Shown: positions 7,714 through 10,288 of the stretch, one piece after another | Layout of the letters: each line of letters starts with the position of its first letter | Position numbering within the stretch: the first letter of the stretch is position 1 | Assembly: GCA_902373545.1 (NCBI GenBank) | Contig: CABKMZ010000028.1 | Span: 1 to 22,742 of the forward strand | Length of the DNA: 22,742 nucleotides | Direction of reading: 5' to 3' | Origin: an uncultured Actinomyces sp. | Lineage (GTDB): Bacteria; Actinomycetota; Actinomycetes; Actinomycetales; Actinomycetaceae | Translations under genes and position numbers: made by a program | Notes under the pieces: generated by a model | What the model was told of the DNA's origin: nothing | The model's input: only the letters and a program-made list of their open reading frames with translations | Database searches by the model: none

Positions 7714-7838
7714 CTCAGTTTCCTTCACCGTGCTATTGTGTCGCACCAGCGTGGGCAGCGCACGCCCGCCCTTATGCTCTCAGCGTTTTCGCAGGGTTTT
7801 GTCAGCCCGATTCAACGCCTGCCAGCTAGTCTGTGGCC

Positions 7839-9314
7839 ATGAATGACAATGAGTCTGGCACCCCCTTTGAGGATTTTCTGCGCTCTATCCTGGGAGACGA
7901 GGCAGCCGCCGAGGCAGCCCGCGCCCTTGAGGCCCAGGGCTTCGACCCCGCCAACCTGCCCCCGGAGTTTTCGGATCCGGCGCGCATGAAGGCGGCGCTG
8001 GGACAGTTCCAGTTCCTGATGAACACGACGGCTGGCCCGGTGAATTGGCGGGTCGTGGAGGATAGCGCGAAGCAGGCGGCATACGTCAGCGGCGACCCCT
8101 CCCCCACGGCGACCGAGGCTGAGGCAGCGCGTCAAGCGATGACAATTGCGGACCTGTGGCTCGACGCCGTCACTGATTTCGCATCCGGGCCGGTGACGCG
8201 CGACGTGTGGAGCAAGGTCGCCTGGGTCGAGCACACGATCCCCACGTGGAAGCGCATCTGTGAGCCCGTGGCGCTGAACGTATCGCGCGCCCTGTCGGGG
8301 GCGTTGTCCGAGCAGTTCGGTGAGGGCGCCGAGAGCGACGTTGCCCTGCCGGACGGGATGGCGGCCATGCTCGGCAAGACGCAGGAGATGATGCCGCGTC
8401 TGTCGGCGATGATGTTCTCCGCGCAGCTGGCCCGCGCGCTGGGCGCTTTGGCCGGGGAGGCCTTCGGCACTTTCGACACGGGTATTCCCCTGTCGGATAC
8501 CTCGCACGCGGCTCTGCTGCCCCACAACGTCGCGCAGTTCGCCGACGGCTTGGATGCTCCTTTCGAGGAGGTGCGCCAGTTCCTGGCGGTGCGTGAGGCC
8601 GCCCATCGGCGCTTGTTTGCCTCGGTTCCGTGGCTGGAGGGCGATCTGGTGCGCGCGGTCGAGCGCTACGCCTCTCAGATCGCAATCGACACGGAGGCGA
8701 TTGCGCAGGCAGCGCGCTCGGTGGATCCCTCGGATCCGCAGTCCGTGGAGTCGGCGCTCAGCGGCGGCGTGTTCGCGCTGTCGACCACGCCGGATCAGCG
8801 CCGAGCGCTGACGCGCCTGGAGACGATGTTGGCCCTCATCGAGGGGTGGGTTGAGGTCGTCACGGCCCGCGCGACGCTGCCCTATCTGCCCCACGCGGAC
8901 GCGCTGCGCGAGATGATGCGTCGCCGCCGCGCGTCGGGCGGCCCGGCAGAGGAGATTCTGGGCTCCCTCATGGGCCTCAAGATGCGTCCGCGCCAGGCGC
9001 GCGGCGCCGCCGAGATCTTCACGCTCGTGGAGGCGGACGGCGGTCGCGACGCCCGCGAGGCGCTGTGGTCGCACCCGGATATGGTGCCCTCGGACACCGA
9101 GCTGGCCACGCCTGACACGTTCCTGACGCTACGCCGGGCGGCGGCGGAGGAGGACGCGGATATCGACGCCGCGCTCAATTCACTGCTTGATGGCACGCTC
9201 GGCTGGGCAGAGGGTCTGGAGCCCGGGGACGAGGCCGGTGCAGGGTCGGACGCGTCGGCTCCGAAGGCTCTCGGCTCGGAGGACGACGACACAGACACGT
9301 GCGAATCGGAATGA
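7839..9314 (+). CDS. DUF2342 / zinc-dependent metalloprotease family protein
   Basis: This 491-aa protein is recognised as the actinobacterial DUF2342 (COG5282) family, often annotated zinc-dependent metalloprotease or F420-biosynthesis-associated; Rv3195-like. Typical blocks are ANLPPEFSDPARMKAALGQF, WRVVEDSAKQAA, LWLDAVTDF, MMFSAQLARALGALAGEAFGTFDTGIPL, VREAAHRRLFASVPWL and AREALWSHPDMVPSD. I see no HEXXH, so protease activity rests on family naming only. A tail rich in Asp/Glu/Ser follows. A GTG at 7833 is an alternative start. I prefer ATG 7839 because TAGTCT (7827-7832) lies exactly 6 nt upstream and no SD is present, consistent with a leaderless transcript. Confidence 0.88.
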   Translation: MNDNESGTPFEDFLRSILGDEAAAEAARALEAQGFDPANLPPEFSDPARMKAALGQFQFLMNTTAGPVNWRVVEDSAKQAAYVSGDPSPTATEAEAARQAMTIADLWLDAVTDFASGPVTRDVWSKVAWVEHTIPTWKRICEPVALNVSRALSGALSEQFGEGAESDVALPDGMAAMLGKTQEMMPRLSAMMFSAQLARALGALAGEAFGTFDTGIPLSDTSHAALLPHNVAQFADGLDAPFEEVRQFLAVREAAHRRLFASVPWLEGDLVRAVERYASQIAIDTEAIAQAARSVDPSDPQSVESALSGGVFALSTTPDQRRALTRLETMLALIEGWVEVVTARATLPYLPHADALREMMRRRRASGGPAEEILGSLMGLKMRPRQARGAAEIFTLVEADGGRDAREALWSHPDMVPSDTELATPDTFLTLRRAAAEEDADIDAALNSLLDGTLGWAEGLEPGDEAGAGSDASAPKALGSEDDDTDTCESE

Positions 9315-9323
9315 TCTGACAAG

Positions 9324-9332
9324 TTATCCACA
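9324..9332 (+). promoter_or_regulatory. Candidate DnaA box TTATCCACA
   Basis: TTATCCACA is an exact match to the E. coli high-affinity DnaA box and one base from the actinobacterial TTGTCCACA form. It stands alone in the AT-rich 95-nt gap between the DUF2342 gene and the ThiF-like gene. A single box cannot be an origin. It could bind DnaA as a regulator or titration site, or be coincidence. Confidence 0.4.
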
Positions 9333-9353
9333 GATTTTTCAAAACGCTGCGCG

Positions 9354-9413
9354 GTGAACCTACACAGGTTCATGATGATCTCAACAGGCATGAAACAAAG
9401 GAGATCATCATGA
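9354..9413 (+). CDS. Possible upstream leader ORF overlapping the ThiF-like start
   Basis: GTG 9354 opens a 19-codon frame (MNLHRFMMISTGMKQRRSS) whose TGA (9411-9413) overlaps the downstream ATG (9410-9412) as ATGA. Internal ATGs at 9372, 9375 and 9390 are alternative starts. It runs through the 5' arm and loop of the hairpin that holds the downstream start codon, so translating it would open that hairpin and could couple initiation. There is no strong SD. Whether it is translated is unknown. Confidence 0.3.
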   Translation: MNLHRFMMISTGMKQRRSS

Positions 9414-9418
9414 ACCTG
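9355..9418 (+). promoter_or_regulatory. Start-codon-sequestering inverted repeat with competing upstream arm
   Basis: CAGGTTCATGATGATCTC (9365-9382) and its exact complement (9401-9418) form a perfect 18-bp stem with an 18-nt loop. The 3' arm contains the ThiF-like ATG (9410-9412) and the end of the AAAGGAG Shine-Dalgarno (9397-9403). TGAACCT at 9355-9361 can instead pair with AGGTTCA at 9366-9372 across a 4-nt loop, giving an alternative fold that would disturb the large stem. The stem is about 44% GC in a region well above that. The repeats are seen directly; translational control is inferred. A DNA-level dyad operator is the other reading. Confidence 0.7.
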
Positions 9419-10288
9419 GCACCCCACACGGCGATCCTGTGGCGCGGCCCCGGCGCCGTGCGAATCGGCGGCGACCGCTCCCGTTACGTGTTGCTCGATG
9501 ACCTGCATGCAGGCGACCAAATCTGGCTGAGCAACCAGGCGCGCTCACCTCGCTCCCCCGAGCCCACCACGGCCTCGCCCGAGCTCATCGCGGCGCTGCG
9601 CCGCGCGCACCTGATCGACCAGGAGGACAGGCGCGCCCCTCTGCGCATGGGGGTCCTCGGTGCCGTTCCCGCCGCGGCGCTCGCGCTGCGAGCCCTGGCC
9701 GATACGCTCCTTCTCTCGCTCGCGGTCGACGCCGACCAGCTCGTGGACAAAGACTGGGACCGCGTCTTCGGCGGCTCCTTCACCGGAACGCCGCGCGACC
9801 GGGCGATTCGGCGCGAGCTTGCGCCCCTCATCGCCCTGCCGTCCCTCCACTATCAAGGAGACGTCGACATGGCGCTCGTGTGCGCCGACCGCGTCGTCGA
9901 TCCCGGCGTTCCCTTCGAGCTGACGATCCACGACACGCCGCACCTCATCGTGACCCGCGGCGAACACTCCTACGAGGTCGGGCCCTTCGTTATTCCCGGC
10001 ATCACCCCGTGCTACCAGTGCGCCGAGCACGCACGCGCCCAGGAGGATCCTTTCCATCTCACGCACCTGCGCGAGCTCACCGACTGGCCGCTGGGGACCC
10101 TGCCGATGCTGGCCCACTACGCCGCTGCTCTGCGCGTGGCACGCCTGATCCGCGACTTCGCGTCGGGTGCGCTGACGACGCAGCTGTGCACCGAAGTCGC
10201 AACGATTGACGAGGACGGGACGATCACCGTGGAACGCACCGCCCCCGCGCCCGAGTGCGTGTGCGGGATCACCGGGCTGGCCTGCTAG
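9410..10288 (+). CDS. ThiF/E1-like (TOMM cyclodehydratase-like) protein, degenerate nucleotide site
   Basis: This 292-aa protein resembles actinobacterial ThiF-family or TOMM leader-peptide-binding proteins and Rv3196. Supporting features are the C-terminal half GPFVIPGITPCYQCAEHARA, then DP, and a Cys pair near the end: CxxC at 201/204 and CxC at 283/285, a plausible structural Zn site. The Rossmann-like segment MGVLGAVPAAALALRALAD (80-98) lacks the GxGGxG glycines and catalytic Arg/Asp pattern of active E1 enzymes, so adenylation is doubtful. No YcaO, precursor peptide or sulfur-carrier gene is nearby. AAAGGAG is a strong SD, but it and the ATG lie in a hairpin. The TAG stop overlaps the UvrD2 stop in the palindrome CTAG. 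Confidence 0.75.
   Translation: MNLAPHTAILWRGPGAVRIGGDRSRYVLLDDLHAGDQIWLSNQARSPRSPEPTTASPELIAALRRAHLIDQEDRRAPLRMGVLGAVPAAALALRALADTLLLSLAVDADQLVDKDWDRVFGGSFTGTPRDRAIRRELAPLIALPSLHYQGDVDMALVCADRVVDPGVPFELTIHDTPHLIVTRGEHSYEVGPFVIPGITPCYQCAEHARAQEDPFHLTHLRELTDWPLGTLPMLAHYAAALRVARLIRDFASGALTTQLCTEVATIDEDGTITVERTAPAPECVCGITGLAC

Follow-up and report, generated by a model that had tools for sequence, protein, structure and literature searches.

The window, i.e. the whole stretch of 22,742 nucleotides analysed here, carries on its plus strand a zincin-like metallopeptidase gene at 7833–9314 (PF10103, 367.5 bits), the presumed source of read-through RNA, followed by an open reading frame of 292 aa at 9410–10288; a UvrD/HRDC helicase gene lies downstream of the latter on the opposite strand. 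Judged from sequence comparisons, the 292 aa product is a divergent ThiF/E1-like protein. It had no match in Pfam and its score against TIGR03882 (28.4 bits) was below the cutoff of 36.9; the profile made from the ThiF-like family matched the TruD chain (1.2e-5) and the MccB chain (6e-4), and PF00899 (ThiF) matched weakly in 2 of 18 aligned family members. The AlphaFold model, obtained with 25 similar sequences, had a mean pLDDT of 51.3 and was too poor for a structure search. Far from this locus, a repetitive coding stretch at 168–1631 on the minus strand was spotted by eye.

Around the start of the ThiF-like gene, the plus-strand segments 9365–9382 and 9401–9418 are exact reverse complements of 18 nt separated by an 18 nt loop (9383–9400), found both as an inverted-repeat match and by RNA folding. 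The Shine-Dalgarno sequence AAAGGAG (9397–9403, identified by scoring, 6 nt 5' of the ATG) begins in the loop and ends in the 3' arm, which also includes the start codon ATG at 9410–9412. The perfect hairpin described in the earlier note, with the start codon and the end of the Shine-Dalgarno sequence in its 3' arm, was thereby confirmed. When the RNA from 9315 to 9450 was folded, a free energy of −52 kcal/mol was obtained (z = −5.95) and none of 200 shuffled sequences was equally stable. The 18-bp inverted repeat is real and far above chance expectation. As a background we used 176 predicted gene starts in 400 kb of a related genome, a set that includes the ThiF-like ortholog itself, for which the mean cost of opening the initiation region was 11.4 kcal/mol. 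The cost for the window, 23.2 kcal/mol, was matched by 2 of these 176 starts, and a duplex between upstream RNA and start region as strong as that of the window was found at only one.

Scanning of genome contigs gave one matching locus, in Actinomyces sp. HPA0247, and scanning of viral contigs gave no relative. The ThiF-like protein was matched in 33/35 genomes of the genus and 140/213 of the family, and the alignment profile in 201/213 family genomes, from which 71 ThiF-like loci were drawn, mostly from matches beginning at the N-terminal start, after L030, L031 and L034 (no usable start) and L001 (a duplicate of L002) had been removed. At one of these loci, L025, the start was placed 3 nt too early in the pairing, box-search, opening-cost and fixed-hexamer analyses. 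Close relatives with 62–79% protein identity were present in ten genomes, the next relative having 42%. These ten loci and the window could be aligned without gaps from 5' of the DnaA-box-like element described below through the start codon (11/11); given that these 11 close loci share ancestry, they are not independent of each other.

In all 11 close loci the start codon was predicted to be paired to upstream RNA with a probability of 0.96–1.00 (minimum free energy z from −3.0 to −8.7), and in the 60 other ThiF-like loci such pairing was mixed. With longer flanks the predicted unpaired probability of the AUG was 0.00–0.04 in 10 of the 11 and 0.47 in L008. In the consensus structure of the 11-row alignment, the start codon is covered by a helix of 9 bp and the Shine-Dalgarno sequence by one of 4 bp, with a further helix of 3 bp; 90.9% of the cells are paired. 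The opening costs of the ten loci other than the window were matched by 1 to 41 of the 176 background starts; the hairpins of L008 and L010 are weak, with opening costs that are ordinary compared with the background. By sequence, hairpin potential is thus preserved in all ten close relatives found, though weak in two. Of the idea that the start-hiding hairpin should be conserved and covarying, the first part stood and the second did not: double changes were seen at 3/18 pairs, a count reached by 43 of 500 shuffles, and on the consensus structure at 2/16 pairs, reached by 78 of 500. Neither result is significant and covariation was dropped as a proof of RNA structure.

Upstream of the hairpin lies a putative promoter element resembling a DnaA box, GTTATCCACAG (9323–9333, plus strand), the sole match in the window at ≤1 mismatch, which contains the exact DnaA-box 9-mer TTATCCACA at 9324–9332. 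In 57 of the 71 loci this 9-mer occurred, on either strand and with ≤1 mismatch, in the 200 nt that precede the ThiF-like start, 35 of these loci having an exact copy; mononucleotide shuffling of the same regions gave about 1 locus. A −10-like hexamer, CATGAT, follows 37 nt past the box at 9371–9376 (plus strand), midway along the 5' arm, and was recognized by fixed-gap comparison: CAT[GC]AT is found at a gap of 37 in 11/11 close loci, where shuffling predicts 3.4 loci with a hexamer at a gap of 36–40. At the other ThiF-like loci, the pattern xAnnnT was present at a gap of 36–40 in 41/43 (8.5 in shuffles), with gaps of 37 nt (n = 10), 38 nt (n = 23) and 39 nt (n = 9), one locus possibly being counted twice. 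The same pattern was found at 16/23 comEA loci (shuffles 3.9) and at 12/17 other box sites (shuffles 3.4), and in none of the four sets was the hexamer count equalled in any of 300 shuffles. These statistics were calculated for plus-strand boxes with ≤2 mismatches and the core TCCACA, which kept 43/60 other ThiF-like and 23/30 comEA loci, and for the 17 box sites left after two origin loci and comEA had been omitted. The gap of 37–39 nt was first noticed on some of the comEA and other sites, and the 43 other ThiF-like loci were examined afterwards; since some of these sites suggested the gap, the counts for comEA and the other sites are partly circular, and the 43 ThiF-like loci are the fresher test. 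A sigma-70 scan found no consensus promoter pair at the window, L003 or L006.

From this sequence pattern, the first half of the hairpin, its 5' arm, probably doubles as the ThiF-like gene's own promoter. Since the hexamer is kept in 41 of the 43 other ThiF-like loci, where there is no general fold-back, a promoter explains the core of the arm independently of RNA folding. Given a −10 hexamer ending at 9376, transcription is predicted to start near 9383 on the plus strand (about ±1), the first base past the 5' arm. A transcription start downstream of 9382, which the earlier note had named as an argument against its own reading, is therefore what the hexamer position predicts.

The two kinds of RNA that could cover the gene are predicted to differ strongly. 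In the close loci, opening of the region from −15 to +12 would cost 13.8–26.1 kcal/mol in long RNA vs 6.0–8.7 kcal/mol in the short mRNA, and shifting the 5' end in the model of the window RNA from 9365 to 9383 lowered the cost from 26.5 to 7.7 kcal/mol. For three of the short mRNAs (window, L003 and L004) the AUG is nevertheless predicted to be base-paired, as part of a weaker local fold that is cheap to open (unpaired probability 0.01, 0.01 and 0.06, respectively). No terminator was found between the zincin and ThiF-like genes at the three loci scanned (the window at 9200–9500, L003 and L006). In these models the Shine-Dalgarno sequence and/or the AUG is sequestered in long RNA, and the fixed-gap hexamer of the close loci (11/11) and of the family (41/43) suggests that the 5' strand of the same structure contains the gene's putative promoter.

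We therefore considered a mechanism in which the DnaA-box-like activator site at 9323–9333 and the −10 hexamer at 9371–9376 would drive a short mRNA that begins at about 9383, lacks the 18-bp hairpin and has a good Shine-Dalgarno sequence in a leader of 27 nt. Transcripts running in from the zincin gene would include 9365–9382, which would fold onto 9401–9418 and hide the end of the Shine-Dalgarno sequence and the AUG. Given that read-through RNA would carry both arms with the start hidden, the ThiF-like protein would be made only when the gene's own promoter fires. Sequence comparison supports the box, the hexamer at its fixed gap, the position of that hexamer within the 5' arm and the hairpin potential of one clade; from these we infer where transcription starts, that RNA reads through from the zincin gene and that this RNA is silenced. 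Most likely the hairpin blocks protein synthesis only from RNA entering from the upstream gene, and to the full proposal, that the inverted repeat links the ThiF-like promoter to the start codon so that read-through RNA is silenced and the gene's own mRNA is translated, we give about an even chance.

The strongest competitor holds that the 5' arm is a promoter and nothing else, its match to the start region being a by-product of CATGAT meeting ATCATG together with shared ancestry, with no function in RNA. The hexamer by itself provides six complementary bases. Swapping of arms between species costs almost nothing, i.e. the swapped arms pair equally well, and 4551 of 20000 permutations were as good as the native arrangement; the swap was not significant and was rejected as a proof of fold-back. 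The lack of covariation above shuffles and the presence of the promoter without fold-back in most other loci tested also fit this reading. Against it, when the hexamer was held fixed and its surroundings permuted, extra pairing with the start region remained in 9/11 close loci (p ≤ 0.004), the exceptions being L008 (p = 0.20) and L010 (p = 0.11). By eye, the GGTT 5' of the hexamer, which pairs with codons 2–3, is retained in 9/11 close loci, and both the window and L004 pair at 18/18 positions despite four differing arm positions, two of the L004 pairs being G-U. We consider a purely promoter-based origin of the match possible, though clearly less probable than read-through silencing.

The fixed-hexamer test was also applied to 39 of the 43 other ThiF-like loci (the remaining four had no hexamer or were too short), with a significant result in 2/39 and a mean z of 0.00. 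Because the pairing excess is present in 9/11 close loci but only 2/39 others, the promoter looks, from these sequences, old and family-wide and the fold-back like an addition made in a single clade, where the window and L004 have its fullest form. A start hairpin throughout the family, which had seemed likely by eye at L013, L015 and L022, was rejected on the same figures. Two of these loci have features of their own. L015 (in genome G025), whose ThiF-like gene is distant and contains a single in-frame TAG, has its own start-codon fold-back with a different arm sequence. At L022, where the box is reversed, the Shine-Dalgarno sequence and start codon pair by eye with an upstream segment in a stem of 12 bp that has one bulge.

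The arms could instead be half-sites in DNA for a repressor or other regulator spanning the −10 region and the start codon. Between them they do cover the −10 hexamer as well as the initiation region, and the half-sites GGTTCAT/ATGAACC are largely conserved. However, the arm centres are 36 bp apart, and at 6/18 pairs a G-U replaces the Watson-Crick pair in some species, a change that keeps the symmetry of RNA but not that of DNA. A DNA operator is considered unlikely.

Marginally less probable still is control through the leader of a single mRNA that would start upstream of 9355 and be switched between folds by a ligand, temperature or a protein. Models of RNA starting 5' of 9365 do hide the start codon, and the earlier note had proposed two mutually exclusive folds, as in a riboswitch or RNA thermometer, with TGAACCT at 9355–9361 (plus strand) as competing arm. 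This heptamer is present in the window and could pair with the beginning of the 5' arm, but it is missing in the other 10 aligned rows. With the competing arm in only 1/11 sequences (gap-free alignment, by eye), the notion of two exclusive folds of one leader is not supported. In Rfam, the sole match of the whole window at gathering score was a tRNA elsewhere, with none at the hairpin, where neither a known RNA-thermometer motif was matched nor anything else but microRNA models far under their gathering scores (best E 0.02). The predicted opening cost at 37 °C, 23 kcal/mol, would speak against simple melting, and the promoter evidence places the transcription start after the 5' arm. As no alternative fold is conserved, no Rfam family reaches its gathering score at the hairpin and a −10-like hexamer lies inside the 5' arm, a riboswitch or thermometer is not supported; an undescribed aptamer is possible. 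Finally, coupling or attenuation of translation by a short upstream open reading frame (ATG at 9372/9375 to TGA at 9411–9413), which in the window does end in an ATGA overlapping the gene start, is very improbable and was rejected, as the frame is not conserved among close relatives (by eye, L002 and L008 have no ATG at either codon and the stops vary by species) and, with both of its ATGs inside the 5' arm, it would begin before the predicted 5' end of the mRNA.

In the five genomes G021, G006, G061, G053 and G007 there were 14, 17, 6, 6 and 18 copies of GTTATCCACAG, respectively, compared with 0, 0, 0, 0 and 1 of the reversed pattern. The 11-mer adjoins dnaA and dnaN in L104 and, by layout only, in L109; judged by its sequence, the box of the window, with the 9-mer TTATCCACA that is also found at the origin, matches a DnaA box, and it may be read by a protein other than DnaA. 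The box sites were followed in two of the five genomes (13/14 in G021, the remaining one being the ThiF-like locus, and 13/17 in G006), giving 18 further sites with tandem pairs counted once and genes sought in the box orientation only. A gene with some Pfam match was found downstream at 14 of the 18, a count that leaves out the downstream genes of L095 and L113; L106 and L110 gave no family. The genes led by a box include comEA (followed by comEC), FtsK/SpoIIIE in both genomes, WXG100, M23 and methyladenine glycosylase genes, as well as genes for DUF4244, an SSB-domain protein, GmrSD_C and a TPR-like protein (under cutoffs), and four DUF559/MTES_1575-like proteins, two of them above a cutoff. 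The latter, which are restriction-endonuclease-like, lie two per genome at L096:1007–1951, L098:833–1912, L108:2121–3137 and L111:955–1965. DUF4244 is taken by us to be tad-associated.

Several details of these sites were noted in passing. A hexamer 37–39 nt downstream was seen at most of the box sites (L099, L102, L103, L105, L107, L112, L114 and others), and the SSB-domain gene has a box and no visible hexamer. Tandem boxes in the same orientation, 28–30 bp apart, occur in L100 (2001/2029), L102 (1997/2027), L105 (2008/2038) and L107. The genome G033 has five near-copies of a longer string beginning GTTATCCACAGATTT, most genomes having one or two. Fold-back of the start at other box genes was rejected, the start pairing being 0.00–0.44 at the 7 of 18 sites that could be tested, i.e. 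those with a Shine-Dalgarno-led start.

Upstream of comEA, the 9-mer was found with ≤1 mismatch in 22/30 loci (0.8 in shuffles), and the best box match was plus-oriented in 30/30, these loci being anchored on the match start rather than on a confirmed start codon. Outside the family, we examined comEA in 20 genomes picked for an early match start from 85 with a match; a box with ≤1 mismatch was present in 3/20 (0.2 in shuffles), and a hexamer at 38–39 nt was present at two of those three and at one site with 2 mismatches. This similarity of sequence is suggestive only, and the box-plus-hexamer promoter may extend beyond Actinomycetaceae. At L175 and L177, also comEA loci outside the family, TAGCGT stands 39 nt past a degenerate box.

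A literature search within papers open without subscription, including the matches listed for the string TTATCCACAG, gave no description of a promoter made of this box and hexamer. In Micrococcus luteus, according to excerpts of three papers, transformation requires comEC and tad genes and is lowered by mutation of the FtsK/SpoIIIE gene Mlut_07490, and the HTH_17 protein Mlut_14660 is named as a candidate regulator whose action on the comEA/EC promoter awaits testing (PMC8467076, PMC4322843, PMC12849477); an excerpt of the 2026 paper among them calls the cascade controlling competence unidentified (PMC12849477). The box described here likewise precedes comEA-comEC, FtsK/SpoIIIE and DUF4244 genes in relatives, whereas no DnaA box is mentioned for the M. 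luteus genes in those excerpts (PMC8467076, PMC4322843, PMC12849477). We tentatively suggest, somewhat less confidently than the silencing itself, that a competence (DNA-uptake) regulon of Actinomycetaceae is driven by promoters made up of GTTATCCACAG and a −10 hexamer 37–39 nt further on, with DnaA or another protein of the same specificity recognizing them. The ThiF/E1-like gene would be a core member of this regulon, and one clade would have gained a fold-back hairpin in which the −10 region itself serves to silence read-through RNA. Our hypothesis for the ThiF-like gene is accordingly that it serves DNA uptake.

If true, these proposals would expose a promoter class common to the ThiF-like gene and comEA-comEC, and its defined site and near-fixed spacing would make competence control testable in a family related to M. 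luteus, an actinomycete. They would also provide a chromosomal bacterial case in which one DNA stretch is both a promoter and a silencer of unwanted transcripts, a type of control that to our knowledge has been described chiefly in phage T4 and mobile elements. A start codon is also hidden by RNA structure in RNA thermometers and translational riboswitches, but here no alternative fold is conserved, no Rfam family is matched, and the gene's own mRNA probably lacks the 5' arm. In the transposase genes of IS10 and IS50 a fold-back inhibits translation of read-through RNA, which similarly shields the gene from transcripts entering from outside, although those are mobile elements and the ThiF-like gene is an ordinary chromosomal gene. 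The nearest parallel is gene e and I-TevI of phage T4, for which excerpts of two papers describe translational silencing of long transcripts, as also for I-TevII, I-TevIII, segB and Aeh1 mobE (PMC3014915, PMC2988022). For gene e and I-TevI, according to the same excerpts, a hairpin hides the Shine-Dalgarno sequence and AUG in RNA from upstream promoters, and the gene's own late promoter is placed so that its transcripts, made without the 5' strand, are translated (PMC3014915, PMC2988022). The present case differs in being a bacterial chromosomal gene with a DnaA-box-like site instead of a phage late promoter, and in that its start site and silencing are deduced. By analogy, we propose that the hairpin of the window may work like those of T4 gene e and I-TevI.
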